From Clostridiaceae bacterium (GTDB lineage Bacteria > Bacillota > Clostridia > Acetivibrionales > DTU013), in the NCBI GenBank assembly GCA_012519745.1, contig JAAYPO010000005.1, positions 1-54,550 on the forward strand: a DNA stretch of 54,550 nucleotides, in the 5' to 3' direction. Positions 1-42,127 of this stretch are shown in pieces (positions within the stretch are counted from its first letter, which is position 1; each line of letters starts with the position of its first letter). A program made the translations under genes and the position numbers. Under the pieces are notes generated by a model. The model was not told the DNA's origin. It ran no database searches and saw only the letters and a program-made list of their open reading frames with translations.

Positions 1-3000
1 GGTAATGTCATGGGCATAGGCTTCTCCAAAGATGTCCGCGGTTATTTGCTCAGCATAGCTTCTGCCAAAGAGGTCTGTATAAGAGACCATCACAGGGCCG
101 TCCTTGTAGATCGGGAGATTTTCATACGTATCAGAATAACCCTTCTCACTGCCCACAGGATTCGTGAGCTTGACCGGCACACTGAAGGTCAGTGCATTTC
201 CATAGGTATAGACTTTGTCAGGATTTGTGACAGCAGGAGCTTTACCGTCGATATTCAGTTCAAGATCAATTTGTGCATCATTGCCTGCTGCATCAGTTAC
301 ATGCAGTACTGCGGATGACAGCCGGACTCCGGACTTGGCATAGAACAGCAGTTCGATCCTGTCGATCACTTCTCCGGGAATCCACTCGTTTTGCATGAAA
401 ATCCCATAAGCCTCGCTGCCTTTTACAGGGAAGCGGATCGGCGAGGTAATATCTCCCGCCGGCACATCCAGCAGATGGGCGGTATATGCCGAATCAAAGG
501 TGATATAGGCGTCGTCTGTATCATCCCCGGTAATGTCGGCATTAATGGTAAAGCTGCCGTTATCTCTGTTGATGGCATAGCTGTGGTCAACAACCGGCGC
601 CTCTCTGTCGATATAATCGATCACATGGCTCACCTCTGCCGCATTACCGGCCTTATCGACGGCTGTCACTTCTATCCTGCCGTTCCGGCTGAATATATAA
701 GCTCCGTTTTCGGGCTGGACAGACGCTCCGTCTTCATATTCCGCAGTAACGCTGACCTCGATATCTGCGGCAGGAGTATCCATGATATAATGCTCTTCAG
801 CCCCGCCTTCGTTTTTGATCCGGCCGTCCCTTACGGTTTGTATGGTCACAGTCACATCATTATTGGCAGCTTCTCTTTCAGAGACATTCAGGATTATTTC
901 CGGCGGAGTCTCATCTCTTGTAAGGTCGATCCTGTATACGGGAGAATATCTCCTTACAGGCAGATAAGTGAGCTCTCCCGGGAACTCGCCGGCAACCTTT
1001 ATTAAATATTCATTGACCAATTGATAGTATGCGCTCAAGGTTTCACCTTCAGCAAGGGTTCCGCCGATATCCTCAAAAAGATTTGCCAGTTCGATGGCGA
1101 AGCTTCCTTCCTGGCACTGTGCCGGTTGCTCGCAATCGATCGTGATGGATTGCCCGTCAACTTGCAGATCTTCAGCAGTGCCATACAAAACATGGTAGTT
1201 ATGGCCCGGAGCGATGGTCGAAGGGTAATCGGTCATACCTGGAGGATCGCTTATATACTCGCCGCTTATGGAATATTTGTAAAGCATGTTAAAGGCGCTG
1301 TCCGGCATATCGACCTTAAGTATGAGCTGTGGATCATCCCCCTTGAAAAACACCCTGTGAGCCGATACGGTATTGTCTATGATCCTGGTATCGATCCCAT
1401 CGCCTTCGGTCGTAAGATTTGCCCGGACAGCCATATCCGTTTCCCCGAAATCATTATCCGCTGTTTTTACTGATTCGAATATAAGCCCAGGTGTTCTGTT
1501 CTCAAAAGCAAACATGGTGAGGATCTCGCTTCTGTCGATCGGACCATATTGATCCTGGTATTCATATTCGATCCAAAATTCATAGCGTATAAGATTGCCT
1601 TCCTCATCGTAAGCATATGGTGTGATAAGGCTGATATCGACAGGCAGCGTAAAGCTGTAATCCATAAGATACATGGAATTGTTGCCGTCCGGCAGTAATC
1701 TGCTCCTGCCGAGCCTGCTGTTTCCCTCCGCCAGGTTCAGCATGCTTTCGGTCAGATACCATGTCTGGATCGTTTCTTCCGATTCCACGGTTTCATTATT
1801 GAACCGGAAGCTGTAGTCATAATCAGTACCCGGATCACCGGTCGCTGAAGGCTCCATGCTTCCGTCAGACTGGAATATCACTTTCTTCAAAATGACTCTT
1901 GTACCGCCAGGTTCACCGGTCAGTTTAAGAGATTCAAGCCCAAGTACAGGATCGTCCTTCAGTACGAATCCCGCCTCCGCAAAATCGTGGAGAGGAGTGG
2001 TATTCAATGCTGTAGGTCTCACACCCTGGGCCATGGAATCTGATAAGGACAAATTGATCGCGTCTAATAAAACGCTTCCCGGACTTTCAGGATAATACAG
2101 CCCATACCCGTAATGAGGCCAGCTGTCTTCGAAATAATCGACAAAGCTCTTGAACTCCCTGTCTATCCTGTTGCCGCCGGCATCGTTCGTTGAGAAACGG
2201 ATCATCTGCACATCATAGGTCCCGGGCGCATACCTGGTATTGAAAGGTATGAATTCAAAGGTATATCTATCCACGCCTTCGATTTCGCTATGATACCTGC
2301 TGCAAATCGCCAGCACAATGGGCCCGCTGATCTCACTCGACTTTGCCTGTCCGGCGCTGTCCCAGCCATAGGAGTAACCCGCACCCGAGCTGTCATAATT
2401 CCTCCATACCAGGGTACTGCTGTCCAGCGTAAAAGTGACAGATGCAGGCGTAGTCGTACCTATCTCATTCCATGCCCCTCTGAATACATTGCCGTCATTG
2501 TTTTTGAAAATTTCACCGCCGTCCTCTTCAAACTCGGTCCCCCATTCTATCCAGGCATGAGCGTATTCTTCAGCATTCTTGAAGCTTACGGCCGCGGAAA
2601 GCTCCATATCTTTGATTATGTCGCCTGTTTCTTCAGGGGATATACTCTCTACATAGATCTCGCTGCTCTGGTTGTCAAAGGTCAAGTTAAGTAATCTAGC
2701 CGTTTTGTTGCCCGATCCGTCTTCAACCTCGACCCAGAGAGTCCTGTAGTATATTTCATTCTCTGTCATGCCGTTTTCAGCATAGTTGTATTCCAGCGAT
2801 TTATACTCGTTCCTTATGGACCCTTCCTCCGTCCAGGCTGAAGGATAATCTGCGTTGTGGTTATCAAGCCACGCACATCTGTATGTCATAGAACCGCTGT
2901 TATCAAATGCTTTCAGCACTATGCTGAATCCGTCTTTCTTATATCTCCTTTCCAGCTCCACTTTTGGGGCTACCGTATCCAAGGGAGGATCAAACCTGTG

Positions 3001-5115
3001 TCCTGCAAAACCATATCCCACATTTCCCGCAGCGTCGGTTACGTATATGTTCGTACCCAGACCGCTCATCTGAGCATCGCTTTCCGGCAGTTTAATAAAG
3101 AGATAAGCATTTTTTGTATCGGCTTCGCCGAGAGGCACAAGGGGAGCATTAACGCTAAAGTCTTTACCCGTAGCATTTTTCCAATCAGAACCATATGATC
3201 CGTTAGTGCTTACTTGATATTGCATAGCAGAGATGCTGTCCAGATTAGTAGTCACTGAAAATGCAGCGTCCCTCCCATGGAGCGAAGCATCGCTGACAGT
3301 GGCCGTTATCTTGAAAATATTATTCACTTCCTCAGAAAAGTCCGCATTAATAACAGGTGCTTTAAAATCCACATAATAGTTTTTATCAAAAGCAGGCATT
3401 ATTTCCGGTGTTGTGAGCAGATAGCCTGATTCATCCATCTCCGTCTCTCCATCGGGTATGCTGATGGATTGGAGTCTGACCGGGCCTTCGGCAGTATAAT
3501 TTCCAGGTCTCCAATAAAAAGCAAATCTATACCTCAAACTGGTGCGAAGGTGGCCATTTCCACCAATTCGCGTTTCTTGTATACGATTAAATAAAGGTTT
3601 TACATAGTTCCCGCTTCCGTCATCTATGTTCAGTGCTATTTCTGGTATGCGGTCCCCTATAGCTCGGATCTTATTATAATTTATTGTAATGGTCAAAGTA
3701 TCGTCCTTGGTCAGATATTCGTCGATATTGCTGCTGCGGGTGATGGTGACACTTTCGACTATAAAAGGTTCAAAGTCGACGGCGGTCTTGGCAGACACCC
3801 ATTCCCCTCTTTCTGATTTCCTGTTGCTAAACGGTACAGAGTAACTTCCGCTCCGGCTGCCGTTCCTTTCTCCATAAGCGTTTCCGGCCATATCTGTAAG
3901 GTGGTTGTAAATGGCGCTGTTAACCGATGAGGATATGTTCACTGATGACAGTTCATAATAAAGATCCTTGCGTATACTGCTTTGGGGATCCTGTATCTCG
4001 TATTCAAAGATCATGACCGGCGCTGAAGTATTCGCATCCGGAGCATATTCCAGAAAATCCGCGTCCAGCGGCATGGCATCGCTCCCGTCCCTGCCGGTGG
4101 TCTGTATTGTCAGCTTCAGGTCCGCAAGCTCTTCCGGGCTGTCATAGTCCTTGTCGAACTTTACCGGTTCGTCGAATATGACTCCTATGTAAACCTTATC
4201 TCCGATCTTATCATCCTTTACGGCCTCGGCACCCCGCCAGTTGCTGTTTTCCGTTCCATCCGGATTGTATTCCCATGGTCCGTTTTTACTGTATGACAAA
4301 TTCACGGCCTTGATCCTGGGTCCATTATAGTCTCTGCCCACCAGCACTCCATTCTCCATCTCCGTGTGCACCGGTCCTCCGTTGTAGGAACTGCCGTAAT
4401 AACTCATTATCAGATTATTGCCGCCCCAGTCCTTCCATGTGCTGCTGCCGGTAAGGTTCAGCTTGTCATACTCTTTATCGCTGTTTACAGTGTAGTTCAC
4501 CCTCTCCCAGCGGTTTCCGTCAGTACCTGTAAATCTCTTTGTTTCTCCGAAAATATTGATTTCCGCGATAGCGGACTTATTTTTACTTTTTATGCCGTCC
4601 TGCGTGTAACGGCGAACAAAGACCCTGTATGCAAAAGCAAACTTCAGGTCTCCCTTATCCAGCATATTTTTGATATTTCCCTGCGTATATCCCCCGCTCC
4701 TGCCGACAAGTATCCTCCTGAAATCATAGTATACCTTGAAATCCTCGTCCATGTCGTCATTAGAAATCGCGCCGTTAAAGGGATCCTTTTTATTTGTATC
4801 CCCGTATGAGCCTGAACTCCGATATGAGCCAAACTTGTTCAGATTCAGCTTGTATGAGTTCAGAACGCTCAGCTGCTGGCTTGATTTGGATTTAGTAACT
4901 ACTTCCTTATCGTAAATAGTCATATCATAGTCAAAGAACATCAGCTCCTGGCCCCCGGCATTAAGAGGCCGCGGTGCATAGGTAACAGGATTGCCATAGC
5001 TGTTTTCACGCTCCGCGTCTGCCGCCGACACCTGTACATCCATTATTAGCTGCAGGCTTAATAGGATAACTGTTGCAAGAATAGTAAATAAAAAACGGCT
5101 GTGTCTTTTCTTCAT
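1..5115 (-). CDS. Very large secreted protein with Ig-like / D-x-A-G-N repeats (3' end beyond window)
   Basis: The frame stays open from an ATG at 5115 to the window edge, giving at least 1705 residues, and the C-terminus lies outside. AAGGAG sits 9 bases before the ATG. Residues 1-31 form a signal peptide: a Lys/Arg start, then a hydrophobic core, with likely cleavage near VSA-A. The rest is acidic, rich in Tyr/Asp/Asn and predicted beta. It has recurring loop motifs of the type T-D-x-A-G-N (TDMAGN, TDAAGN twice, EDGSGN, DKAGN), which are typical of tandem bacterial Ig-like or cadherin-like surface domains. No catalytic motif or cell-wall anchor is visible in the part present; anchoring could be in the missing C-terminus. 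It is transcribed divergently from a TetR regulator, which may control it. The role is unknown; adhesin, S-layer-associated protein or surface scaffold are inferences. Confidence 0.85.
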   Translation of the reverse strand, partial: MKKRHSRFLFTILATVILLSLQLIMDVQVSAADAERENSYGNPVTYAPRPLNAGGQELMFFDYDMTIYDKEVVTKSKSSQQLSVLNSYKLNLNKFGSYRSSGSYGDTNKKDPFNGAISNDDMDEDFKVYYDFRRILVGRSGGYTQGNIKNMLDKGDLKFAFAYRVFVRRYTQDGIKSKNKSAIAEINIFGETKRFTGTDGNRWERVNYTVNSDKEYDKLNLTGSSTWKDWGGNNLIMSYYGSSYNGGPVHTEMENGVLVGRDYNGPRIKAVNLSYSKNGPWEYNPDGTENSNWRGAEAVKDDKIGDKVYIGVIFDEPVKFDKDYDSPEELADLKLTIQTTGRDGSDAMPLDADFLEYAPDANTSAPVMIFEYEIQDPQSSIRKDLYYELSSVNISSSVNSAIYNHLTDMAGNAYGERNGSRSGSYSVPFSNRKSERGEWVSAKTAVDFEPFIVESVTITRSSNIDEYLTKDDTLTITINYNKIRAIGDRIPEIALNIDDGSGNYVKPLFNRIQETRIGGNGHLRTSLRYRFAFYWRPGNYTAEGPVRLQSISIPDGETEMDESGYLLTTPEIMPAFDKNYYVDFKAPVINADFSEEVNNIFKITATVSDASLHGRDAAFSVTTNLDSISAMQYQVSTNGSYGSDWKNATGKDFSVNAPLVPLGEADTKNAYLFIKLPESDAQMSGLGTNIYVTDAAGNVGYGFAGHRFDPPLDTVAPKVELERRYKKDGFSIVLKAFDNSGSMTYRCAWLDNHNADYPSAWTEEGSIRNEYKSLEYNYAENGMTENEIYYRTLWVEVEDGSGNKTARLLNLTFDNQSSEIYVESISPEETGDIIKDMELSAAVSFKNAEEYAHAWIEWGTEFEEDGGEIFKNNDGNVFRGAWNEIGTTTPASVTFTLDSSTLVWRNYDSSGAGYSYGWDSAGQAKSSEISGPIVLAICSRYHSEIEGVDRYTFEFIPFNTRYAPGTYDVQMIRFSTNDAGGNRIDREFKSFVDYFEDSWPHYGYGLYYPESPGSVLLDAINLSLSDSMAQGVRPTALNTTPLHDFAEAGFVLKDDPVLGLESLKLTGEPGGTRVILKKVIFQSDGSMEPSATGDPGTDYDYSFRFNNETVESEETIQTWYLTESMLNLAEGNSRLGRSRLLPDGNNSMYLMDYSFTLPVDISLITPYAYDEEGNLIRYEFWIEYEYQDQYGPIDRSEILTMFAFENRTPGLIFESVKTADNDFGETDMAVRANLTTEGDGIDTRIIDNTVSAHRVFFKGDDPQLILKVDMPDSAFNMLYKYSISGEYISDPPGMTDYPSTIAPGHNYHVLYGTAEDLQVDGQSITIDCEQPAQCQEGSFAIELANLFEDIGGTLAEGETLSAYYQLVNEYLIKVAGEFPGELTYLPVRRYSPVYRIDLTRDETPPEIILNVSEREAANNDVTVTIQTVRDGRIKNEGGAEEHYIMDTPAADIEVSVTAEYEDGASVQPENGAYIFSRNGRIEVTAVDKAGNAAEVSHVIDYIDREAPVVDHSYAINRDNGSFTINADITGDDTDDAYITFDSAYTAHLLDVPAGDITSPIRFPVKGSEAYGIFMQNEWIPGEVIDRIELLFYAKSGVRLSSAVLHVTDAAGNDAQIDLELNIDGKAPAVTNPDKVYTYGNALTFSVPVKLTNPVGSEKGYSDTYENLPIYKDGPVMVSYTDLFGRSYAEQITADIFGEAYAHDIT

Positions 5116-9463: not shown

Positions 9464-10564
9464 TCAAGGCTCCCGTATGTAGTCCTCAAAATGGCTGGTA
9501 TACCTGAACCCACCATTTTTCAGCACCCAAAATCCTTCCACCTCCGGGAGTCCTTCAATGAACTCCACAGCCTGGTCGATGTCCATATTGAACACAGCTG
9601 TAGACAGGGCATCGGCCATACCTGAATCCCTGCACAATATGGAAACCGACTTGTAATCGGTGGATGGGAAAAGGGTGTCGGGATCTATAATATGGTGATA
9701 ATCAATACCATCAACAGTATAGTATCTTTCATATATTCCACTGGTGACAAGGGATGCGTCCATTATGTCCAAAATGTGCAGATCGGGCAGTTTCTCGCCT
9801 GTTTCAGGATTCTGTATCCCCACATTCCATGGATGGCCCTGGGCATTTTTACTTCCAATGGCGCGAACATTGCCGCCTACGCTTATCAGGCCTGATGTGA
9901 ACCCGGCTTCCATGGCGATACGACTCGCCTGCTCAGTTGCATAGCCCTTGGCGATGGCACCCACATCAATGCTCATTTCAGGGTCAGCCAGATAGACCGT
10001 AGACTCCGCTTCATTTATAATGATCCTGTTTATATCGGTATGCCTGGCCGCCTCTGCCAGCATGTCCACGGGAGGCAATTCCGCCGAATCGGGGTCATTC
10101 ATCCCCCTTTGCCGGTAATCATGCCAGATCCGCAGGACAGCGCCATAAGCTACATTTACCTTTCCATCGGTTTTATCATGCCACTGCTTTGAAAATTTTA
10201 AAAGATCTATTATTCTTCTGTCCACCTTGACCGGAGCCCTGCCGGCATTGTCATTGACCGTCTTCAGATTGTTTATGCCCTCATAGCTGTTGTATATGTC
10301 ATATAGCTGGTGGTATTCGCTGAGCGTGTCGTATATGAGACGGGAGTGCGCTGCAAACTCTTCTTTGTCATTTGTATATGCAATGATAGTTGTTTTCGTA
10401 TCAAAGAGCTGCAGGAACGTAGCTTCATAGCGTACGGGTTTGCGCATACCGCAAGCGGCAGTGTTTAGCAAAAGCAGCACCGACATGCAAAATAGGCATA
10501 TCCTTTTCACGGATATACAAGCAAGTATATTTTTCCTCTTCATTGCTGTAATATTGTCTATCAC
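9464..10564 (-). CDS. fmnB: ApbE/FmnB-type FMN transferase lipoprotein
   Basis: Attaches FMN from FAD onto Ser/Thr of exported proteins by a phosphoester bond, outside the membrane. The 366-residue protein has a lipoprotein signal (basic start, hydrophobic stretch, lipobox LNTAAC with the lipidated Cys near residue 38). The ApbE fold follows with DVGAIAKGYATEQ, ISVGGNVRAIG (FAD binding) and YHHIIDPDT (metal and substrate site). The start is GTG 10564 with GGTGAG ahead; ATG 10543 (MKRKNIL) is an alternative but has no good ribosome binding site. It lies just downstream of the two-domain lipoprotein that is its likely target and closes the electron-transfer locus. Family is certain; the FmnB role is inferred from context. 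Confidence 0.9.
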   Translation of the reverse strand: MIDNITAMKRKNILACISVKRICLFCMSVLLLLNTAACGMRKPVRYEATFLQLFDTKTTIIAYTNDKEEFAAHSRLIYDTLSEYHQLYDIYNSYEGINNLKTVNDNAGRAPVKVDRRIIDLLKFSKQWHDKTDGKVNVAYGAVLRIWHDYRQRGMNDPDSAELPPVDMLAEAARHTDINRIIINEAESTVYLADPEMSIDVGAIAKGYATEQASRIAMEAGFTSGLISVGGNVRAIGSKNAQGHPWNVGIQNPETGEKLPDLHILDIMDASLVTSGIYERYYTVDGIDYHHIIDPDTLFPSTDYKSVSILCRDSGMADALSTAVFNMDIDQAVEFIEGLPEVEGFWVLKNGGFRYTSHFEDYIREP

Positions 10565-10696
10565 TGCATCAACTCACCGCCGCTCCATACCTGATCATTT
10601 CCGGGTAAGAAAAAAGTCAGAGAGACAAGTCCTGCCTCTCCAACTGATATTACCATAAAGCTGTGATGTTATCTATTCTATAGTTACAATACACGG

Positions 10697-11728
10697 TTAT
10701 TTGGCGTTTTGTGAAGCTTTTTCGATCACCGTGATGAAATCTGTGACATGGACGGTAACTGAGCTTGCCAGTTCGGCATCTGCAGGGGCACCCTCCTTCA
10801 AGGAAATACCCTTGACTTCGCTGGCAGTTTTGCCGGTCACATAAGCCGCAAATGAAGCTGCCTGCTCATTCCATTCCTTCTTTATGCCGGAAGCCTTCCT
10901 CATGCCGTATACATCGCCCAGTTCGTTCTTTGTCTTCACTTCCGCAGTCTTGACGTCAGTGGTCAGTTTACCTGAAGCATTGAAGTTGACATTGGACTGT
11001 GAAGCATCAATAATGCTGCTTGTGATCTTTCCATCTGCCCCGAATGTAGTCGCAGTATACATAGAGTATGCCTGAGCAAGACCATCCTTGTCAGCCGAGG
11101 CATCGGTGGATTTATCCATGGTGGTAACGATCCCAAGGCCGAGCTTGTCGCCTGCTTTTGCTCCCAGATCCTGTGCATTATTGACTGCCTTCTCTATAGC
11201 CTCGATGAGATCGGTAACATGTACTGTGACCGAAGATGTGAGCTCCGCAGCTGTCGGTGCGCCTGCTTCATCCAGTGCTATTCCCTTGACCTCAGCCAGA
11301 GTCTTGCCGGTCACATAAGCCGCAAAAGCATCTGCCTGCTCATTCCATTCCTTTTTGATCCCCGATGCCTTCCTCATCCCGTAGTCGTCCTTCAGCTCCT
11401 GCTTTGTCTTAAAGACAGTATCCAGCGGAGTAACGATTTTCCCTGATGCTGAAAAGTTGATCTTTGTCTGTGCGGCATCGATCTTGCAGGCAGCGATCCT
11501 GCCGTCTGCATCCACAGTTACCGCAACAACAGTAGAATCAGTCTGTGCAAGGCCATCCTTCTCCCCTGCATCTGTCGATTTTGCCACCGATGTGACAACT
11601 GCAAGCCCTGTCTTGAGAGCGCCTTTCGTCGTCCCCTGGGGCGGCGTCTGGTTCGAGCCCTGGCCGCATGCGGTTAGCATAACAATTGACAGAACAAGGC
11701 TCAGAATTAGTGCAATGATTTTTTTCAT
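10697..11728 (-). CDS. pplA: PplA-like lipoprotein with two repeated flavin-carrier domains
   Basis: Predicted surface electron carrier. The start is ATG 11728 behind GGAGGAG, giving 343 residues. The lipobox LTAC puts lipid on Cys21. After a short Gln/Thr/Pro linker come two homologous domains (about residues 41-196 and 197-343). Each carries STDA..KDGLAQ, DA.Q..(I/V)NF.ASGK and GMRKASGIKKEWNEQA, and ends (A)ELxSSVTVHVTD. In FMN_bind proteins the FMN-bearing Thr sits in SGAT followed by a helix. By position SSVT here (Thr168 and Thr325) is the best candidate for flavinylation, one per domain; this is inference. It is followed by apbE and preceded by the Gx-family gene, as in FLEET loci. A transport or binding role without flavin cannot be excluded. 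Confidence 0.8.
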   Translation of the reverse strand: MKKIIALILSLVLSIVMLTACGQGSNQTPPQGTTKGALKTGLAVVTSVAKSTDAGEKDGLAQTDSTVVAVTVDADGRIAACKIDAAQTKINFSASGKIVTPLDTVFKTKQELKDDYGMRKASGIKKEWNEQADAFAAYVTGKTLAEVKGIALDEAGAPTAAELTSSVTVHVTDLIEAIEKAVNNAQDLGAKAGDKLGLGIVTTMDKSTDASADKDGLAQAYSMYTATTFGADGKITSSIIDASQSNVNFNASGKLTTDVKTAEVKTKNELGDVYGMRKASGIKKEWNEQAASFAAYVTGKTASEVKGISLKEGAPADAELASSVTVHVTDFITVIEKASQNAK

Positions 11729-11757
11729 AAAAAGCTCCTCCATTTTTCGAATATATA

Positions 11758-12291
11758 TTATTGGCCCAGCCGGTCAAAGGCCGGAATAATAAACCTCAGC
11801 AGTGTGGCCGTCACAATGCCCGCGACAACTCCGGATATGAGCAGTACAGGCAGGTACGCCACCAGATACATCCCCGTGTAAATAAACGATATTGCAATGA
11901 ACTGGCCCAAATTGTGGGCGACAGCCCCCGATATGCTTTCTATCACATATGATGCCTTTTTGTTGAAGGCTATCATTATAATGATCATCACCGTCAGTGA
12001 TAGTATGCCACCTGAGATACTCAGTATTCCTGCTATCACTCCTCTCGTTGCCGCAACGAAAAGACCCTTTAAAACAGCTATGGAAAAAGCCTGGCTTTTT
12101 TTCAGAAAAAACAATGCATACATCACCGCAATATTCGACAATCCGAACTTGACTCCGGGGACAGGGAGCGGCAGCGCCGGGAAAGCGTTTTCCACCACTG
12201 TCAGCACCAGTGCCAGCGCAAAAAGCAATCCGGTCAGGACAAGGGACCTGGTCTTATGTACTCCTTTGCTGTTGTCAGATTTACCTTTCAT
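11758..12291 (-). CDS. eetB: Gx transporter / heptaprenyl diphosphate synthase component I family membrane protein (EetB-like)
   Basis: A 177-residue integral membrane protein with about five hydrophobic segments. It carries the family signature ENAFPALPLPVPGVKFGLSN near residue 35 and SISGAVAHNLGQ near 118, which match the Hpre_diP_synt_I (PF07456) family. Despite that old name, these proteins look like small substrate-binding membrane subunits. In FLEET loci the homologue is called EetB and is needed for electron transfer in an unresolved way. It starts at ATG 12291 behind GGCGGTAAC..AGG. It lies 53 bases after the NusG-domain-II gene and 29 bases before pplA, clearly in the same operon. 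Confidence 0.85.
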   Translation of the reverse strand: MKGKSDNSKGVHKTRSLVLTGLLFALALVLTVVENAFPALPLPVPGVKFGLSNIAVMYALFFLKKSQAFSIAVLKGLFVAATRGVIAGILSISGGILSLTVMIIIMIAFNKKASYVIESISGAVAHNLGQFIAISFIYTGMYLVAYLPVLLISGVVAGIVTATLLRFIIPAFDRLGQ

Positions 12292-12344
12292 CCTAAGTTA
12301 CCGCCTTTTATCGCCTAATACCTCCGCCGGGCCACACATTCTGT

Positions 12345-12764
12345 TCATTGAGCGCTGCCGGTCTGCTTCCCTCCGCTGCCGATTATGATATCCGGCTCAT
12401 CACCGTTCCAGCCGTCTGCCGGTACGATCTTCACAACGATACCGTTGGGCAGGCAGGCGGCACTTTGTCCGGCCAGGTGGATCCTCCCGGTCTTTATGCA
12501 GACCTTGTCGGGACAATCCGACTCAATAAACTGAATACTGCCATTTGCATCTATACGCAATACCACATCATCATCCTGGGGCACCGAAAACACCTTCTCC
12601 CGGCCCGCCGCCAGTTCGACAGTCTCCACAAGCTGGGAGTAATAGTATATCTCAGCCTTTACCGGCCTGCCTGAAGCCGCTTGGCTGTAGATCAGCCATA
12701 TGGCTGCCGCTGCGGCGATGATGGCCGCTATTGCGATGATGTCGGTTTTTTTGAAAAACTTCAT
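12345..12764 (-). CDS. eetA: NusG domain II-containing membrane-anchored protein (EetA-like)
   Basis: 139 residues: a short cytoplasmic start, one membrane segment at about residues 9-27 (IIAIAAIIAAAAAIWLIYS), and an external NusG_II domain. That domain has the characteristic ESDCPDKVCIKTGRI followed by AACLPNGIVVKI, giving three conserved Cys at about residues 89, 93 and 109. Such proteins are unrelated in function to NusG. They recur beside Gx-family and ApbE/FMN-carrier genes, and the FLEET homologue is EetA. An extracytoplasmic role in electron transfer or cofactor handling is inferred from context; the biochemical role is unknown. It starts at ATG 12764 behind AGGATATTTAGG. The tail is Gly/Gln-rich. 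Confidence 0.85.
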   Translation of the reverse strand: MKFFKKTDIIAIAAIIAAAAAIWLIYSQAASGRPVKAEIYYYSQLVETVELAAGREKVFSVPQDDDVVLRIDANGSIQFIESDCPDKVCIKTGRIHLAGQSAACLPNGIVVKIVPADGWNGDEPDIIIGSGGKQTGSAQ

Positions 12765-12895
12765 CCTAAATATCCTGCCTAACCTTCCAGGCTTCGGCTT
12801 GCGCAGGCCTGTGAAACTTTTGACTCAGCAGCGCAAAATACCTGGATAATATTTACCCCTCATACAGCTAAATAAACAGAATCGCAAAACATACC

Positions 12896-13798
12896 TCATG
12901 AAAAAATCGCAGAAATGAACACCATTGCCGTTAAAGAACCCATTATCAGGACGTAATTCTTTATTGCCGTTATAAAAGTAACCGCCTTGTCCTGATGCTT
13001 CAAAAATACTCTTATATTGCGCTGCACCGGTATCAGCGTCAGCAGCGATACCAGGCAGAGCGGCGACAATATTCCCGTCACAGCCATGACAATGATCGAG
13101 ATATAAGCCAGAAAATAAATGGAAGCAAACACATAAAGCGCTTTCCTGCCCAGATAATATGGCAATGTATATCTTTTTACTTTGATATCCTTCTCGATAT
13201 CACAAATGTTATTTGCAAGCATTATGTTCGCAGTGGTACACACAGGCGGCACTGACAGCAGCAGCAAAGAAACAAGGGGCCACACCATCAGTTCCAGGCC
13301 GATTTTGTCCCAGCCCAGGCCAAGGGTCAGGAATGTCCCGGCAGGCATATTGATATACAAAAGCAAAAACGGTATAAACAATCCGTAAAAGACACCGGAC
13401 ATGACCTCTCCCAGCGGCTGCCTCGAAATAGGCACCGGCCCGTATGTGTACAGCACTCCGGCCAGGAAACACACTCCCCCTGCTAGAAATACAACAATGT
13501 CTGTGATAAGAGCCAGATAAATGCCAAGGAACGCACTGATCGCAAAAAGCACATAAATGATCCTGAGAGCCGTCCTTCTGTTGAATTGCAGCTGCTGGTC
13601 ATTTGTTTTTGTGTCTATGTAATTGTTTATAGCAGTGGTGGTCAGATCGAACACGAACATCGATCCAAAAAAGACCAGCGTCCTGAGCCAGTCAATAGAC
13701 TGATCCTTATACAGAATAAATGCAATTGTCAGCAAAAAAGCAAATGTGCTGGTTATCTTCGTCTTGATCTCTACATAGCTTAAAAATCTTTTTACCAT
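12896..13798 (-). CDS. dmkA: UbiA/MenA-like prenyltransferase (demethylmenaquinone biosynthesis)
   Basis: Expected to attach a polyprenyl chain to 1,4-dihydroxy-2-naphthoate, making a demethylmenaquinone in the membrane. It has 300 residues with 8-9 hydrophobic helices. The two Asp motifs of UbiA enzymes are present: NNYIDTKTND near residue 60 (N-x-x-x-D-x-x-x-D) and NNICDIEKDIKVKRYTLP near residue 196 (D-x-x-D with a downstream K/R-Y-T-L-P). It starts at ATG 13798 behind AAGAGG. It lies directly downstream of a polyprenyl diphosphate synthase that would supply its chain. In FLEET loci this pair is dmkA/dmkB and feeds a quinone dedicated to Ndh2. Exact aromatic acceptor not determinable here. 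Confidence 0.85.
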   Translation of the reverse strand: MVKRFLSYVEIKTKITSTFAFLLTIAFILYKDQSIDWLRTLVFFGSMFVFDLTTTAINNYIDTKTNDQQLQFNRRTALRIIYVLFAISAFLGIYLALITDIVVFLAGGVCFLAGVLYTYGPVPISRQPLGEVMSGVFYGLFIPFLLLYINMPAGTFLTLGLGWDKIGLELMVWPLVSLLLLSVPPVCTTANIMLANNICDIEKDIKVKRYTLPYYLGRKALYVFASIYFLAYISIIVMAVTGILSPLCLVSLLTLIPVQRNIRVFLKHQDKAVTFITAIKNYVLIMGSLTAMVFISAIFS

Positions 13799-13830
13799 AA
13801 CAGCCTCTTACTCTGAGCCCTGCGGCATCC

Positions 13831-14865
13831 TCAGCGCGCAATGGTCTCCGGATTCCCTGATATGTCATGCCGGGCACCTGCGTCATCCCTCCGGAACACT
13901 CTGTATGCCTTATCCAATATCTCCGTCAGACGCATTTTCTTTTCCTCGGTCAGTGCCAGCCTGTCCATAGTCTTAATATATCTGTTGTAGTACTTTTTAG
14001 CCAAAAGTCTTGTGAAACCCAATCCATTGTATCTTTCAACAGCCTGACTCAGCTCAGCCGTGGAGAGGTCATGCTGCGCAGCCCTGTCCTTCAGACCTGC
14101 CTCAGACTGAAACGCCTTGATGATCGGCAATGTAATGACATTCTTCTCAAAATCGGACTGTACAGGCTTCCTGGCAATGCTTTCGTCAGCTTCAAAATCC
14201 ATACAGTCATCGATCAATTGAAACAGCATGCCAAGACTGCGGCCCATCTTTTTGTACAGCTTGAGCTCTGAGCTCTCAGCGCCTGAAAGTACAGCCCCGG
14301 CTAAAAAAGAAGCCTCGAACAATGCAGCAGTCTTTCCGGCAATGATCCTCAGATACTGATAGACTGTCAGGTCGAAATTTCCGTTATTGATATGCTGGTT
14401 GAGCTCGCCGGAGCATACTTTGGAAACATAGTCGGGCAGATCTATCTCCAGATAGTCCTTCCTGGTACGCAATGAAAACACAAGCTTCAGCGATACGCTT
14501 AAAAGGTAATCCCCGCATATCACAGCAGTCCTCTTGCCGAACATCTTCTGCAGCGTCGGAACACCGCGCCTGATATCGGCATCATCAATGACATCATCAT
14601 GTACCAGCGTAGCAAGGTGCAGCAGCTCGATGGCCGCAGCAAATACGACGGCATCAGCATTGACCTGTCCCTCATTGTTCATGGCGCAGGCCAATAATGA
14701 TACGGCACGGATAAACTTTCCCTTAGTTCCGGTCAAATGCTTCACATAGCCCCTTACAAGAGCAGGAGATGAAAAAAGCGCTCTGTCGACCTCTTCCCTG
14801 GACCTCGAAAGAGCGCTGTCAAAATCTAAATAATTGATACCATCAGTCAAATTGACGTCAGTCAT
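13831..14865 (-). CDS. dmkB: Polyprenyl diphosphate synthase (DmkB-like)
   Basis: A trans-prenyltransferase that elongates farnesyl/geranylgeranyl diphosphate with isopentenyl diphosphate. At 344 residues it has the two Asp-rich motifs: FARM in LVHDDVIDDADIRRGVPT (about residues 92-109) and SARM in QLIDDCMDFEAD (about 215-226). GKRTAVICGDYLL lies between them. Its start overlaps the last 8 bases of ndh2 (ATGACTGA), a sign of translational coupling. It is probably the chain-length determinant of the quinone used by the neighbouring Ndh2. The heptaprenyl synthase large subunit HepT is the alternative name for the same family; the Gx-family gene three genes downstream is the so-called component I. 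Confidence 0.88.
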   Translation of the reverse strand: MTDVNLTDGINYLDFDSALSRSREEVDRALFSSPALVRGYVKHLTGTKGKFIRAVSLLACAMNNEGQVNADAVVFAAAIELLHLATLVHDDVIDDADIRRGVPTLQKMFGKRTAVICGDYLLSVSLKLVFSLRTRKDYLEIDLPDYVSKVCSGELNQHINNGNFDLTVYQYLRIIAGKTAALFEASFLAGAVLSGAESSELKLYKKMGRSLGMLFQLIDDCMDFEADESIARKPVQSDFEKNVITLPIIKAFQSEAGLKDRAAQHDLSTAELSQAVERYNGLGFTRLLAKKYYNRYIKTMDRLALTEEKKMRLTEILDKAYRVFRRDDAGARHDISGNPETIAR

Positions 14866-16957
14866 GATATAAATACCACTTTCTAACCCATTTCACATTT
14901 TTCCATTTGCTCTTTAGCACCGGCATGGCGTAATAATCAAGCCCCAGTGTCCTGCCGGCGGCGATGAGCAGCGCGATAGCTGCAAATACCATCCAGAAGG
15001 TGTTCAGATAAAGACCCGTAGTGGTCACAAACATTGCCTGGAGTATCAGTGATGCTGCAGAAGCAGGAGTGGTGAATAAACCGCCGATCAGCGCAAGACC
15101 AATCAGTATCTCAGCCACAACGATGAAAATCTGCATGAACATTTGTACCGATTCGCTTGGGAGTATCAAATTATCAATAAAGGTATTCATCAGAGGCACA
15201 TCCAGCTTGAAAGCATAATCAGCCAGTGTTGAATGGGCCGGATCCTTTCCGCTGACAAAAATCGCTCTGAACAGACCTAAAAAGTCAAAGTTCAAAATAG
15301 CGGTGCCCACTGAGCTGACAGCTTCTCCGGCTGCGGCTGTAGCTGAACTTACCGCGTCAGAAGCGGCACCCGTTGCTGAACTGACCGCGTCAGCGGCAGC
15401 TCCTGTAGCCGAACTAACTGCGTCAGCAGCACCTGTCGCCGCGCTCTGTACAACTCCTGTAGCTGCGCTCGCAGCATCGGCAGTCGCTCCACTGGCGCCG
15501 TCTGTAGCTGCTCCGCCATTGAGTATGCTCTCGTACCATCCATTTGCTCCGCTGAAAAATCCGTTCAGCTTAGGAGAAACAAACCAGCCCTCCGTTATCT
15601 TTTTGATGCCCTCAAACAGCCAAACTGCTCCAAGCCACACTCTAAGAGGCATCAGCAGGAAGCTGGGGGTCCTGTTGGACAAATGACCGCCTACAAAGCT
15701 TCTGCGGTTCCTTATAGTGAAAAACTCATGCTTCACATAGCTGAATATCTTGTTCCACCCAAGCACCTGAATAAAGTACACAATATTTATGAAGTGTTTT
15801 GTAAACATGGCAAGGAAGGACGGCAGACTGAACATCCTGTTAGGAAAGCCCACATGCGCCACACCATAACGTCCTCCCAAGCTCACCATTATACCATGGA
15901 AAGAGGGCTTATAGACCTCCATCTCACCCTTGCCCGTTATAGCACAGGCTATGTTGTGAGCAACCACCTCAGCGCTCTGCTCACAATTCTCTACGACCTG
16001 GGGAACAGGTCCCTTCTCGCCTTCAGCGGTGTAAAGCATATTATCGCCTGCCACATATACATGCTCATCATCTACTGAACGAAGATATTTATCAAGGGTG
16101 ATACGCCCTCTCTGCCCGGATGTGAGCTCCTGTGCGGCTTTTTCGGTGATATCCGCCGCTTCGATCCCCGCTGCCCAGATTATTGTGCCCGATGTCTCGC
16201 GTACGACATCATCGCCTCTCTTCAGATCGATATAGTCCTTCCCAATACTGACAACTCCTGTATCGAGCAGTACTCTCACACCCATTTTCCTGAGGCGTTT
16301 TTCCACCTTGGCAGACAGCTTCTCCGGCAATGCAGGCACTGTGCGCTGCAGCACATCTATATCAGAAATGGAGACAAGCTCCCTGTCTATCTCATACTTA
16401 TCACACAGGATCGGAACATATTCGGCAAGCTCGCCTGCCATCTCCACTCCCGTGAAACCGGCGCCTACGACATGGAAGGTCAGCAGCCTTTTCTTTTCCT
16501 CCGGATCGGTCTGCTTTGTAGCCCTTCTGAAGGTTTCCTGGATATGGTCCTTCAGAATGACGGCATCCTCAAAGCTCCAGAGCTTGAAGGCATTCTCTTC
16601 CGCCCCTTCAACCCCATAATATGTCGGCTTGGAGCCTGCACATATCACAAGATAATCATATGGATATTGCTGGTTCGTCCCTATGACTCTCTTTTTCCCG
16701 AAATCCACCGATGTGACGGTATCGAGCCTGACATCCACTCTCCTGCCTGCAAATATCCTCTCAAGGCTCAATCTGAGGCCTTCCTCATCGACTCTGCCGG
16801 CTGCTACCTCATGCAGTTCGGTGAGCATGGTATGGTAGGGATTTTTGTCGATTATCGTGATCGACACTTCTTTGTTTTTCTTAAGCTTTCTTTCCAGCTT
16901 TTTTGCGGTCAAAACTCCCGCATACCCGGCTCCGATAATCACAATTTTAGTATTCAT
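14858..16957 (-). CDS. ndh2: Type II NADH dehydrogenase fused to a DoxX-like membrane domain (Ndh2)
   Basis: Oxidises NADH and reduces a quinone at the membrane. It has 699 residues from ATG 16957 (GGGAG ahead). Residues 1-400 are the FAD/NAD flavoprotein: IVIIGAGYAGVLTA for FAD, FHVVGAGFTGVEMAGEL for NADH, and YVAGDNM near residue 312. Residues 400-480 start the membrane part (FINIVYFIQVLGW; LRVWLGAVWLFEGIKKITEGW, typical of DoxX). Residues about 482-551 are an Ala/Ser/Thr repeat, mostly 11-residue units like TGAAADAVSSA. Three more TM segments then end the protein. The extra membrane domain is what separates EET-type Ndh2 from ordinary respiratory Ndh. It is first in the operon, overlapping the prenyl synthase gene. 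The repeat insert is unusual. Confidence 0.9.
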   Translation of the reverse strand: MNTKIVIIGAGYAGVLTAKKLERKLKKNKEVSITIIDKNPYHTMLTELHEVAAGRVDEEGLRLSLERIFAGRRVDVRLDTVTSVDFGKKRVIGTNQQYPYDYLVICAGSKPTYYGVEGAEENAFKLWSFEDAVILKDHIQETFRRATKQTDPEEKKRLLTFHVVGAGFTGVEMAGELAEYVPILCDKYEIDRELVSISDIDVLQRTVPALPEKLSAKVEKRLRKMGVRVLLDTGVVSIGKDYIDLKRGDDVVRETSGTIIWAAGIEAADITEKAAQELTSGQRGRITLDKYLRSVDDEHVYVAGDNMLYTAEGEKGPVPQVVENCEQSAEVVAHNIACAITGKGEMEVYKPSFHGIMVSLGGRYGVAHVGFPNRMFSLPSFLAMFTKHFINIVYFIQVLGWNKIFSYVKHEFFTIRNRRSFVGGHLSNRTPSFLLMPLRVWLGAVWLFEGIKKITEGWFVSPKLNGFFSGANGWYESILNGGAATDGASGATADAASAATGVVQSAATGAADAVSSATGAAADAVSSATGAASDAVSSATAAAGEAVSSVGTAILNFDFLGLFRAIFVSGKDPAHSTLADYAFKLDVPLMNTFIDNLILPSESVQMFMQIFIVVAEILIGLALIGGLFTTPASAASLILQAMFVTTTGLYLNTFWMVFAAIALLIAAGRTLGLDYYAMPVLKSKWKNVKWVRKWYLYHD

Positions 16958-16992
16958 TTTAATCTCCCGATTATTAAAAATTAACAATAAAT

Positions 16993-17021
16993 ATTTTCGC
17001 AAAAGTATTATGCCTTGTCAA
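16993..17021 (-). promoter_or_regulatory. Candidate promoter of the electron-transfer operon
   Basis: On the minus strand a perfect -35 TTGACA (17016-17021) and a 4/6 -10 GAAAAT (16993-16998) are 17 bases apart, about 36 bases before the ndh2 ATG. No further good promoter is seen before the next six genes, which supports one transcript down to apbE. Confidence 0.55.
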
Positions 17022-23469: not shown

Positions 23470-24615
23470 TCACATCCCCAGTGCGTCCTTCATCTTATCA
23501 AAAAAGCCCTTGCGCTGCTCATACACATCATCTCCGCTTATCTCTGCAAATTGTCTGAGCAATTCTTTTTGCTTCTCGTTGAGCTTCTTGGGTACGTCTA
23601 TCTCCACCTTGACATACTGATCTCCCCTGCCGGTTCCTCTCAGGTACGGGATACCCTTGTTCTTCAGCCTGAAGATGGAACCGGTCTGGGTACCTTCAGG
23701 TATACTGTACTTCACTCTTCCGTCCAGTGTCGGTACCTCCAGCTCAGCGCCCAGTGATGCCTGAACAAATGTTATCGGCATTTCGCATACCACATCATTG
23801 CCCTGCCTTCTGAATATGGCATGGGGCCTGACTGCAACAGTGACATAAACATCGCCGGCCGGACCGCCCTTTGAACCGGGCTCTCCTTCGCCCCTCAGGG
23901 ATATGGTCTGCCCATCATCTATGCCTGCAGGGATATTTATCTTCCTCTTGACCGTCTTCTTGACCTTGCCTCTTCCATTGCAATCAGGGCATGGGTTGGT
24001 AACTATCCTGCCCTCGCCGCGGCAGACATCACAGGTCTTGACATTGACAAACTGCCCAAAGGGGGTGCTTTGCCTGTACTGTACCTGTCCTGTACCGTTG
24101 CAGTGCTTGCAGGTCTCCGGACTGGTGCCCGGCCTTGCTCCCGTACCGCTGCAAGTGCTGCAGTTCTCATGCCTGCTTATGGAAATCTCTTTCTCAACAC
24201 CAAAGGCAGCTTCCTCAAAGGTCAGCTGTATGGAATGCCTGATATCTGCGCCCTTCTGCGGCCCATTGCGGCTCCTGGACGAGCGCCCGAACCCGCCGCC
24301 TCCAAAAAACGACTCGAAAATATCTCCGATGCCCCCGAAATCAAAATCGCCAAAGCCTGCGCCGGCTCCGCCGAAGCTGTTTGGATCGACTCCGGCATGG
24401 CCATACTGGTCATACCTTGCCTTCTTCTGCGGGTCACTCAGCACCTCATAGGCTTCATTTACCTCTTTGAATTTTGCCTCTGCATTCTTGTCACCGGGGT
24501 TGACATCCGGGTGATACTGCTTTGCCAGCTTCCTGTATGCCTTTTTTATATCGGTATCCGAAGCGCCCCTGCCAACCTCCAGCACCTCATAATAATCTCT
24601 TTTAGACTGCGGCAA
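23470..24615 (-). CDS. dnaJ: Chaperone DnaJ (Hsp40)
   Basis: Co-chaperone that delivers unfolded proteins to DnaK and stimulates its ATPase. It has 381 residues. The J domain (about 4-70) has the HPD triad in [15 protein letters not shown] Gly/Phe-rich stretch follows ([14 protein letters not shown]). Four CxxCxGxG zinc repeats lie at about 149-215 ([36 protein letters not shown]), then the substrate-binding C-terminal domains. The start must be TTG 24615, because a stop codon lies just upstream in frame; AGGAG is 10 bases ahead. It is separated from dnaK by 241 bases of strongly hairpin-forming DNA, so its level may be set apart from dnaK. Confidence 0.96.
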
Positions 24616-33862: not shown

Positions 33863-35542
33863 TTATTCGCCCTTCATTACATCGCTCAAAACCTCCGCAA
33901 GGTATTTTGTGCTCTCTATGCTCTCACTCAGCAGATTGCCGTCACCTCCGACTTCAATGAGGATGGCATTGTTCGATATCTGCTGATTATATCGCTTTCC
34001 AACGATACGGACCGGTTTTGCCAGTCCCGGATATTTCTCATTCAGCTTCTGCTGCAGCTTTAAAACGAATTTTAGGTTCTCCCTCCACTCCGGATGCGGC
34101 AGCATTCCGTCAGCACCCACAACAAACATGATCTGGGCGCAATTCTTGCCATTGATCTCCTTTGTCATGCGAAGCTTGGGCTTCTTGTCATCGACCGCAT
34201 CCCTGTGAACATCTATATATACCTGTATTGATGGGTAACTCTTCTTATAGCTTTGCAGTGTGTTTATTGAGACACCGTAGGCAGCATCATGAACTTTGTC
34301 ATGGACAGTACCGTTATGCAGTGTGTCGATCCCGTATTTCTCCAGGTGCCTTGCCAGCTCTTCACCGACTCTCACCACATTATACTTCGGATTGCTGTTA
34401 AAGCTTGGTACATCCTTCTTGCCCAGATCAGCTTCCTTCAATACATAGCTTTCTGTTGTATGTGTGTGGTAAATCAGCACCTTGGGTCCTTTCTTTGCCA
34501 GATCGATTCTGAGAGGCTCCTTAAGGAGCTTTGCAATATCGATCTTGTGTTTTGTAAAGTTTTTGATCTGAATTTTATCAAGCTCAACTGTCTCTTTTTC
34601 ATCCCCTTCTTTCTCATCCTCAATTTCGTAGCTTACACTGCTCATTGGCTGATTTCCCAGTGCAAGCTGATTATTGCCGCCGGGATTTCCGCTCTGCTGT
34701 TGATTCCCCTGATTCTGTTGGCCTGCACTGTTATTCGTCTGACCTGCGCTGCTGTTTGTCTGACCTGCCCCGTCATTCGTCCTGCCTGCGCTGCTGTTTG
34801 TCTGACCTGCCCCGTCATTCGTCCTGCCTGTTATATCCGAATTCTGGCCAATAGCATATTCTGTGCCGAAGCTCATACTGCTTTCTGGAGCTCCATCCGA
34901 TTCACTGAATAAATCGTTTCCAATCTGACCATTATTTGTTCCTTCTTTACCTGCACCTTCTCCATTATTCCCGCTAGCTGCACCTCCGCTGCCTATGCTT
35001 CCGCTATCTCCATCCGTGCCAATGCCGCTCCCGCTGTTCCCGCTGCCCGCACTACCGCCACTGCCTGCACTGCCACTACCGCCGTTCCCATTGCCGGCAC
35101 TGCCGCTCCCGCTGCCCGCACCACCGCTGTCCGGCACAGTATTATGCCCGGGTAGCGCATTATCGGCCATGCCCTGTTCTCTCATGGATCTTATTTTGTA
35201 GTAGCTCCTAAAAATCGGTGATTGTGCATTAAAAATCGAAGCAGGCGAATCCAAATCTATATCAAAGACCTTAGTAAACAGCTCTTTGACCTCTCCGGAA
35301 AACGAAACGCTTGACTTACCGCTGTTATATACTGACTCGACAATAGGGATTGACAGACTGATAATGCTCTTAAAGTTATTGGGATCTATACTATAAATGA
35401 CATGTACATCATGCTTGTACCACAAATTTCCCAGCTGGATACCCGCTAGAACTGCTAGAACTGCCAAGATTAATATTGAAACTGACTTTGCAGACTTTTT
35501 CAAAAGTTTCTCAAAAGGTTTTTGCTTATGATCAATATTCAT
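33863..35542 (-). CDS. spoIIP: Stage II sporulation protein P
   Basis: Amidase/endopeptidase of the SpoIID-IIM-IIP engulfment complex, anchored in the mother-cell membrane, which cuts septal peptidoglycan. It has 559 residues from ATG 35542 (GGAGG ahead). A short cytoplasmic start and a TM at about 22-44 (SILILAVLAVLAGIQLG) come first. A normal N-terminal region follows, then a Gly/Ser/Asn/Gln-rich linker at about 131-284, far longer than usual. The catalytic domain has VLIYHTHTTESYV (zinc His), QVYIDVHRDA, AQIMFVVGAD and LIEVGGDGNLLSESIEST. The linker contains near-exact 14-residue repeats (TNDGAGQTNSSAGR/Q). A SigE-like promoter candidate lies upstream. Strong evidence that the organism sporulates or descends from a sporulator. 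Confidence 0.94.
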   Translation of the reverse strand: MNIDHKQKPFEKLLKKSAKSVSILILAVLAVLAGIQLGNLWYKHDVHVIYSIDPNNFKSIISLSIPIVESVYNSGKSSVSFSGEVKELFTKVFDIDLDSPASIFNAQSPIFRSYYKIRSMREQGMADNALPGHNTVPDSGGAGSGSGSAGNGNGGSGSAGSGGSAGSGNSGSGIGTDGDSGSIGSGGAASGNNGEGAGKEGTNNGQIGNDLFSESDGAPESSMSFGTEYAIGQNSDITGRTNDGAGQTNSSAGRTNDGAGQTNSSAGQTNNSAGQQNQGNQQQSGNPGGNNQLALGNQPMSSVSYEIEDEKEGDEKETVELDKIQIKNFTKHKIDIAKLLKEPLRIDLAKKGPKVLIYHTHTTESYVLKEADLGKKDVPSFNSNPKYNVVRVGEELARHLEKYGIDTLHNGTVHDKVHDAAYGVSINTLQSYKKSYPSIQVYIDVHRDAVDDKKPKLRMTKEINGKNCAQIMFVVGADGMLPHPEWRENLKFVLKLQQKLNEKYPGLAKPVRIVGKRYNQQISNNAILIEVGGDGNLLSESIESTKYLAEVLSDVMKGE

Positions 35543-35595
35543 TTTTCCTCCGTTTGCTGTACTAACACAGCATCGTTTGTAAAGGTCTTTATAGA

Positions 35596-35625
35596 ATGAT
35601 ATTCCTGAGTCCATATGTAATATGA
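35596..35625 (-). promoter_or_regulatory. Candidate SigE-type promoter of spoIIP
   Basis: On the minus strand TCATATT (35619-35625) and AATATCAT (35596-35603) are 15 bases apart, a close fit to the mother-cell SigE pattern (KMATATT / CATAYAMT). This agrees with the known SigE control of spoIIP in Bacillus. Confidence 0.4.
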
Positions 35626-40500: not shown

Positions 40501-42127
40501 TATAGAAGGTGCCGCCCTGCACGATGATCTTTTTCCCGATTTCCCTGGGATCGCGGATCTTGATGACCTTCATCAAGGCATTCTTTATCACCGAATAAGA
40601 CAGGCCCGCGGAAATATCGCCAACGGAGGCCCCTTCCTTCTGTGCCTGTTTCACTCTCGAATTGATAAAAACCGTACATCTGGAGCCCAGATCGACAGGA
40701 TTCTCCGCCAGCAGCGCTTCCTTTGCAAAAGCCTCCACCTCCATATTAAGGGAGTTGGCAAAGGTCTCGATAAAGGAACCGCAGCCCGAAGAACAGGCTT
40801 CATTCAACATAATGTTGTCGATAACACCGTTCTTCACCTGCATACACTTCATATCCTGTCCGCCGATGTCAAGTATGAACTCCACGCCGGGCAGAAAATG
40901 CTCCGCCGCCTTATAATGTGCGATAGTCTCGATCTCTCCGAGATCCACATTCAGCGCGGCCTTGATCAGGCCTTCACCATAGCCGGTAACTGTCGAATTG
41001 GCAATATAGCTGTCTGCCGGCAGCTTTGCATACAGCTTCTTCAGTTCCTTTATAACAGATTTCAGCGGGCTGCCTCTGTTGCTGCCATAGTGATAATACA
41101 TCAGCGCGCCATCGGCGTCCGTCAGCGCAAGCTTGGTAGTTGTCGAGCCTGCGTCGATGCCAAGATAGCATGGTCCATGGTGAGACTCCAGAGCCTTTCT
41201 CCTTACAGTATGCCTGGAATGCCTTCGGTTGAACTCTCCCAGTTCGATCTCGTCCCTGAATAGAGGGCTGAGCCGCTCAACCTCCTTGACATTTACAGTA
41301 TTCAATGCCGGCAGCCTGCTGCGCAGCGCTTTGAAACTCATGGGACTGGTCTTTTTAGAGTTCAGTGCCGCCCCAGCCGCAACAAAAAGCTGTGAATTCT
41401 CAGGAAAAATAATTTGCTCTTCAGTTAATCCCAGGGTTTCCACAAATCTTTTGCGCAGTTCGGAAAGGAAATACAGCGGACCTCCGAGAAAGGCCACATT
41501 GCCTCTGATAGGCCTGCCGCAGGCTAACCCGCTTATGGTCTGGTTGACAACGGACTGAAAAACCGATGCCGCTATATCCTCTTTTGCAGCTCCTTCATTC
41601 AGAAGCGGCTGAATATCGGTCTTTGCAAAAACGCCGCACCTGGCAGCTATCGGATAGATCACCTTACAGCCCTTAGCAAGCTCATTAAGTCCGGCTGCAT
41701 CCGTCTGCAGCAGCGAAGCCATCTGATCGATAAATGCTCCTGTGCCGCCGGCGCAGGTGCCATTCATACGCTGCTCGATGCCCCCTCTGAAAAACGTGAT
41801 TTTTGCATCCTCTCCACCAAGCTCGATAGCAACATCAGTATGAGGGATGAGTTTCTGGATCGCGCCGGTGGCAGCCACTACCTCCTGCTCAAAGTGCAGC
41901 CCCAGCCACTGGGCCACAGAAATGCCTCCGGAGCCCGTCAGAGTTACCGTCAGGCTGTCCTCCTCAAACATCGCACAGGTCTCATCCACCAGCTGATAGA
42001 TAGTATTCCTGATATCTGAAAAATGTCTTTGATATTTGCTGTAAACCGCTTTGTCGCTGCTATCCAGCACAACAAGCTTTACTGTTGTCGAGCCTACATC
42101 CAGGCCCAGATGAAAAAGTCGTTTCAT
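37526..42127 (-). CDS. Fused 2-hydroxyacyl-CoA dehydratase activase-like protein (BcrAD/BadFG x2 + DUF2229)
   Basis: A 1533-residue protein starting at ATG 42127 (GGGAG ahead). It has two tandem ASKHA ATPase domains: residues 5-265 ([40 protein letters not shown]) and about 322-590 ([41 protein letters not shown]). The Cys in each C-x-G-G/S-x-G motif would hold a bridging 4Fe-4S cluster, as in HgdC. A DUF2229 region (about 670-890) and a part like the dehydratase B/C subunits ([34 protein letters not shown]) follow. Residues ~1407-1533 are a low-complexity Ala/Thr/Val then Asn/Gly tail. Such long proteins are common in Clostridia but their substrate is unknown; ATP-driven one-electron reduction is the expected chemistry. 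It stands alone, without dehydratase genes beside it. Confidence 0.88.

Follow-up and report, generated by a model that had tools for sequence, protein, structure and literature searches.

Sequence analysis of the window, the 54,550-nucleotide stretch of DNA studied here, revealed an array of flavinylation motifs in a predicted extracytosolic loop of Ndh2, encoded by the first gene of a seven-gene locus. This array is the new element of the present analysis and had been overlooked in an earlier note on the same DNA. The families, gene content and relationships of the seven genes support that the locus is a clostridial flavin-based extracellular electron transfer (EET) operon. Its Ndh2 is probably flavinylated at multiple positions of the outside loop, suggesting that the dehydrogenase itself acts as a covalent flavin wire. 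As read from the sequence, the locus also differs from its Listeria counterpart in three respects: a lipoprotein that is not PplA and has predicted V-T acceptors, a quinone headgroup that would be scavenged, and an ApbE that would be shared with other substrates. How flavin-based EET carries electrons across the Gram-positive wall once they have reached the membrane quinone pool is unsettled; should the outer face of Ndh2 indeed bear covalently bound FMNs in an array, the dehydrogenase would itself make up part of the conduit.

Gene content and relationships of the locus

The window corresponds to contig C31 in a genome of 3.07 Mb and 99.99% completeness. As the earlier note had claimed, seven consecutive co-directional genes are present, all on the minus strand and spanning positions 9464-16957 in our ORF check. 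The first, ndh2 (14858..16957), encodes a cytosolic type II NADH dehydrogenase domain (residues 1-430; Pyr_redox_2) followed by a DoxX/DoxD-like membrane domain (residues 430-699; weak DoxD/DoxX match). Its start was placed at the ATG at 16957 behind a GGGAG ribosome-binding site, and a TTG start at 17002 was rejected in its favor. Then follow dmkB for a polyprenyl diphosphate synthase (13831..14865; PF00348, polyprenyl_synt), dmkA for a UbiA/MenA-type prenyltransferase (12896..13798; PF01040, UbiA), an eetA-like gene for a membrane protein (12345..12764; PF07009, NusG_II), an eetB-like gene for an ECF-S protein that is the predicted FAD exporter subunit (11758..12291; PF07456, Hpre_diP_synt_I, the sole gene of this family in the genome), a gene for a two-domain, FMN-bind2-like lipoprotein (10697..11728; lipobox Cys at 11666-11668), and apbE for an FAD:protein FMN transferase lipoprotein (9464..10543; PF02424, ApbE). 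The HMM searches that the earlier note had proposed as a check thus agree with its family assignments, with no Pfam family found for the lipoprotein.

From ndh2 to apbE the intergenic gaps are -8, 32, 131, 53, 29 and 153 bases. A promoter-like site, TTGACA - 17 nt - TG.GAAAAT, is predicted on the minus strand 5' of ndh2 (16993..17021; 10/12 matches in a consensus scan), with TTGACA at 17021-17016 and a weak -10 element, GAAAAT, preceded by TG. The single TTGACA promoter put forward earlier is therefore present, but between apbE and the lipoprotein gene the unit behind it is interrupted by a hairpin resembling an intrinsic terminator (10615..10645, minus strand; a 13-14-pair stem plus T-run), which is kept at the same place in 7/7 family genomes examined. 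Given the strength of this hairpin, apbE may be read through at a reduced level or have its own promoter. In most family genomes the hairpin sequence (GTCAGGGAGGC..GCCTCTCTGAT followed by the T run) is conserved beyond the needs of the stem. The block glyS-[ndh2 ... apbE]-ppdK is conserved in family members with proteins 54-77% identical, wholly or partly syntenic MAGs including Clostridiaceae AS22ysBPME_286, Bacillota all_maxbin.063 and Hungateiclostridiaceae UBA1305. The assignment to a spore-former also holds, with SpoIIP in the window (33866-35614) and Spo0A in the genome.

BLAST comparison with Listeria gave 35% identity over 677 columns for Ndh2, 33% for DmkB, 32% over 69 columns for EetA, 33% for EetB and 33% between ApbE and FmnB. 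DmkA was assigned from UbiA and from its nearest family, NF009926, at 260.6 bits, which is below the cut-off of 316. The placement of Ndh2 in a tree had been singled out beforehand as a point on which the EET reading might fail. Our maximum-likelihood tree groups the window protein with EET-type Ndh2 of Clostridia, Listeria and Enterococcus (support 99/95) and not with the seven ordinary NDH-2 included.

Like the Listeria locus (L146), the window locus brings together an Ndh2 with an added membrane domain, homologues of DmkA, DmkB, EetA, EetB and ApbE/FmnB, and a two-domain lipoprotein with two predicted flavin sites. The order differs, in agreement with the earlier note. In the deposited Listeria record, fmnA, dmkA, fmnB and pplA diverge from ndh2, eetA, eetB and dmkB, whereas the window genes run in one direction in another order, without fmnA and with a terminator before apbE. 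Lipoprotein homology yielded 80 clostridial loci. At least 21 of them match the window locus in all seven genes and their order; dmkA or eetAB is displaced in others. The arrangement is thus a widespread type and the ordinary clostridial order. Ruminiclostridium cellobioparum (L074/L075), which can be cultivated, is among the relatives that carry the locus. A related module in Clostridia was already noted in a 2019 paper (PMC7074142).

The extracytosolic loop of Ndh2

Residues 481-553 of Ndh2 (15299..15517, minus strand) form an Ala/Ser/Gly-rich loop between predicted membrane helices 1 and 2. The flanks are rich in K/R and the loop is acidic, fitting an outside location. It holds five ApbE-type heptapeptides, namely DGASGAT, DAASAAT and three copies of DAVSSAT, with predicted acceptors at Thr492, 500, 518, 529 and 540. 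DGASGAT conforms exactly to the canonical ApbE motif, D-x-x-[ST]-G-A-[ST] (PMC12052999), and the other motifs have A or S at -2. DAVSSAT is identical letter for letter to the RnfD site of the same genome, and within the heptapeptide its three copies differ only by synonymous codons. The window loop exceeds that of Listeria Ndh2 in length and abounds in D..[ST].AT motifs.

Such a loop might also be expected if the system were an ordinary FLEET with flavin attached to the lipoprotein alone, the loop serving as a flexible Ala/Ser-rich wall spacer and the heptapeptides being a by-product of low-complexity repeat expansion. The compositional bias of the loop and its greatly varying length and repeat number would suit a spacer, and, of the proteins encoded in the EET locus, the literature examined names PplA as the substrate of FmnB. 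However, the motif is far more frequent than composition predicts. In 57 clostridial EET Ndh2, 85 instances of the pattern D..[ST][GSA]A[ST] are spread over 43 loops, as opposed to 1.3 in composition-preserving shuffles; in 47 non-redundant loops, 77 motifs in 37 loops compare with 1.9 expected in dipeptide-preserving shuffles (maximum 6), the motif counts being non-independent events because the clostridial loops share ancestry. Stretches rich in A/S/G/T/V elsewhere on the same contigs yield 1.6 motifs per 1000 aa, against 31.6 in the loops. A pattern-free scan of the positions after Asp ranked T at +6 (106/135, expected 17.8), S at +3 and V at +2 at the top, with A at +5 next. Repeat periods vary among species (about 7, 11, 14 and 20) and yet converge on the same heptapeptide, which reaches up to seven sites in one Ndh2 loop (L165). 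A single [ST]GAS is moreover found in each of the three Bacilli Ndh2 loops examined, from Listeria and two Enterococcus. No motif was found in the NDH domain of the 57 clostridial proteins, and 14/57 loops lack any motif of the tested form. With these results we consider the spacer reading possible but doubtful, and the enrichment in the loops indicates that Ndh2 itself is probably multi-flavinylated.

The seven-residue motif is reported to suffice for tagging by ApbE, also in loops, though less completely there, and in a Klebsiella substrate G-to-A and A-to-V changes each cut flavinylation to about 50% (PMC12052999). In view of these effects, occupancy of the V-T and S/A-A-T sites may be incomplete. 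As far as can be read from the protein sequence, no FMN-binding fold surrounds the loop sites, so flavins attached there would be solvent-exposed. Known extracytosolic proteins with multiple FMN-bind domains similarly have several ApbE acceptors along one polypeptide; there, however, the acceptors belong to folded FMN-bind domains, whereas in the Ndh2 loop the heptapeptides would stand bare, within a low-complexity linker belonging to a membrane dehydrogenase. None of the papers brought up by our literature search reports flavinylation of Ndh2.

The two-domain lipoprotein and its association with ApbE

The earlier note had called the lipoprotein PplA-like, on account of its two domains and its position next to apbE. 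Both features stand, but the implied identity does not. The lipoprotein has no BLAST match to Listeria PplA, no match to the NCBIfam PplA model NF041941 at E up to 10 (cut-off 325 bits; Listeria scores 436 and E. gilvus 492), and no Pfam FMN_bind domain (PF04205, FMN-bind1), for which two of 21 related domains gave matches only at E 0.21 or worse. The expected match to PplA or FMN_bind was accordingly rejected.

The protein consists of two 150-aa domains that are 64% identical to each other, and two domains are found in all 80 homologues. A relative in genome G001 is a single-domain lipoprotein, which may be a collapsed repeat in a draft assembly. The predicted FMN acceptors are Thr173 (11225-11227) and Thr330 (10754-10756), on the minus strand and numbered from the ATG at 11743. 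The acceptor heptapeptide [DE]-L-x-x-x-V-[TS] is in register in 236/236 domains: the acid at -6 and T/S at 0 are invariant (236/236), Ala at -1 never occurs (0/236) and Gly at -2 is seen in 4/236. By sequence, the predicted site thus keeps the register of the ApbE motif and not its letters, and is never the textbook GA[ST]; where Listeria PplA has VSGAT, the window lipoprotein family has [DE]Lx[SA]SV[TS].

Remote comparisons hint at a relation of this family to FMN-binding proteins. The lipoprotein profile matches 2kzx, itself an FMN_bind protein, at E 0.0018 with the acceptor Thr aligned with SGAT. Profile-profile comparison with the Listeria/Enterococcus PplA domains alone gave a probability of 5%, and with RnfG and 2kzx added 52% with the acceptor Thr aligned, a value that is suggestive only. 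For the single-domain model (pLDDT 96.5), the best fold match is the FMN-bind protein 3o6u (Z 8.2, rmsd 3.2, 107 aligned residues), followed by IscU as the next fold family (Z 6.5); a Foldseek search against the PDB gave no significant fold match for either lipoprotein model. The lipoprotein resembles the published FMN-bind2 type (PMC11334425) in its domain size of ~150-160 aa, acceptor spacing of 157 aa, even copy number, invisibility to Pfam FMN_bind and apparent relationship to FMN-bind1 (3O6U). The published example is an Erysipelotrichaceae protein, with which the comparison is by description. Given that description, the notion of a wholly undescribed lipoprotein family was withdrawn.

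An ApbE is encoded in the same locus as the lipoprotein in 74/80 cases, and 24/29 sampled loci without Ndh2/Dmk genes pair the lipoprotein with ApbE alone, which makes the two a portable pair. This pairing would also be expected if lipoprotein and ApbE formed an envelope redox module independent of EET, used for example to maintain the redox state of surface proteins or to take up iron, and were later linked to a quinone-reducing Ndh2, so that the output is not extracellular acceptors. Lipoprotein genes beside ABC exporter genes in Sedimentibacter-type genomes and near Rnf genes (L119) are in line with such a module. Loci with Ndh2, however, usually have Dmk/Eet genes too, in one direction, and their Ndh2 belongs to the EET clade; we therefore regard an EET-independent output as unlikely for the window locus.

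In the sampled phylum, two-gene modules of V-T lipoprotein and ApbE (L169-L195) are commoner than the full operon. The Sedimentibacter-type genomes (L087, L088, L089, L093, L095, L100-L102) encode the lipoprotein often without a nearby ApbE, adjoining conserved genes, namely an ABC-exporter-like pair and a regulator-like gene. Close by the lipoprotein gene of L119 (9365-14811) are rnf-like genes, again hinting at sharing between the lipoprotein and Rnf.

Quinone headgroup, flavin supply and the proposed electron path

The earlier description of the locus as complete did not hold. The searches of the rest of the genome for FmnA/Ecf and menaquinone genes, which that description had left as a check, detected neither MenD nor MqnA/D and, on the FmnA side, a housekeeping EcfT only, so that a dedicated FmnA and synthesis of the DHNA/menaquinone headgroup are both missing, the latter in contrast to Listeria. 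Neither MenD over its cut-off nor MqnA/D was found in the window genome and 45 other lipoprotein-bearing genomes; 16 of these 46 have the operon, whole or truncated by a contig end. Two weak MenD-like matches (70 and 55 bits, cut-off 244) were taken as other TPP enzymes. Given these absences, the headgroup must be imported or scavenged for DmkA to prenylate it.

Since the headgroup cannot be made, the locus might be vestigial or non-functional. The genes are nevertheless all intact and conserved in the family between glyS and ppdK (54-77% protein identity), and quinone-auxotrophic L. plantarum performs EET with exogenous DHNA (PMC10746273), which together make decay of the locus highly improbable. 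The FLEET system of Lactiplantibacillus plantarum (PMC10746273, PMC8837199) indeed likewise has DmkA/DmkB without DHNA synthesis, implying a scavenged headgroup; that organism, however, is a member of the Bacilli with pplA, whereas here auxotrophy extends to all 16 operon-bearing Clostridia tested. In these Clostridia, EET would then depend on community quinone cross-feeding.

The best match to Listeria FmnA, on contig C2, was rejected as FmnA because it is the housekeeping EcfT, located between ecfA genes and truA near rpoA; a second ECF-T (25% identical) is found on contig C12. The transmembrane and ATPase (ECF) subunits of Listeria are partly redundant (PMC9973259).

ApbE is present in a single copy in the genome, and the FmnB catalytic triad, Asp-Ser-His (PMC8906456), is kept: S257/H273/D301 of L. 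monocytogenes align with S275/H291/D318 of the window protein. The genome encodes one FMN_bind protein, RnfG, within the rnf operon, and hence no other flavinylated protein of FMN_bind type. As the only copy, ApbE must serve RnfG and RnfD too. The earlier ApbE/FmnB assignment is thus right as to family, with a shared enzyme in place of a dedicated FmnB.

Flavinylation, the electron path and its acceptors are inferred from what the sequences show: which genes are present, their families and relationships, how the motifs are conserved and enriched, and that headgroup synthesis is missing. An EET operon with FMN on the lipoprotein, the Rnf subunits and the Ndh2 loop is the overall explanation that we hold to be reasonably probable. 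Electrons from cytosolic NADH would pass through the NDH-2 domain of Ndh2 to a prenylated naphthoquinone, built by DmkA/DmkB from an imported DHNA-type headgroup. By analogy with Listeria, EetB and the housekeeping EcfAA'T module would export FAD. Outside the cell, the lipoprotein ApbE would put FMN on both domains of the lipoprotein at their V-T acceptors, on RnfG and RnfD and, most unexpectedly, on several threonines of the extracytosolic Ndh2 loop. Quinol would then reduce a flexible FMN array on Ndh2, which would pass electrons to the two-FMN lipoprotein and from there to acceptors outside the cell, such as soluble flavins or ferric iron. The more specific proposal, in which Ndh2 is an ApbE substrate whose variable-length FMN array is a flexible wire from a quinone pool with scavenged headgroup to the two-FMN V-T lipoprotein, is put forward tentatively, at slightly short of an even chance. 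L. plantarum can do without PplA for some acceptors (PMC8837199). If the proposal is correct, the ApbE acceptor rule would widen to V-T and S/A-A-T, pointing to flavoproteins missed when one searches for GA[ST] or with Pfam FMN_bind.

Three further features of the window lie outside the locus. At 1-5115, a large, seemingly secreted protein (at least 1705 aa) extends past the start of the contig; its only match is a weak one to PKD, and it adjoins a TetR regulator. Near dnaK, dnaJ is seemingly cut, with only the DnaJ_C part open (23473-23781), which may reflect an upstream frameshift or an error in sequencing. Finally, 37529-42127 encodes a 1533-aa protein of the CoA-dehydratase-activator type in which BcrAD_BadFG and DUF2229 each occur twice.
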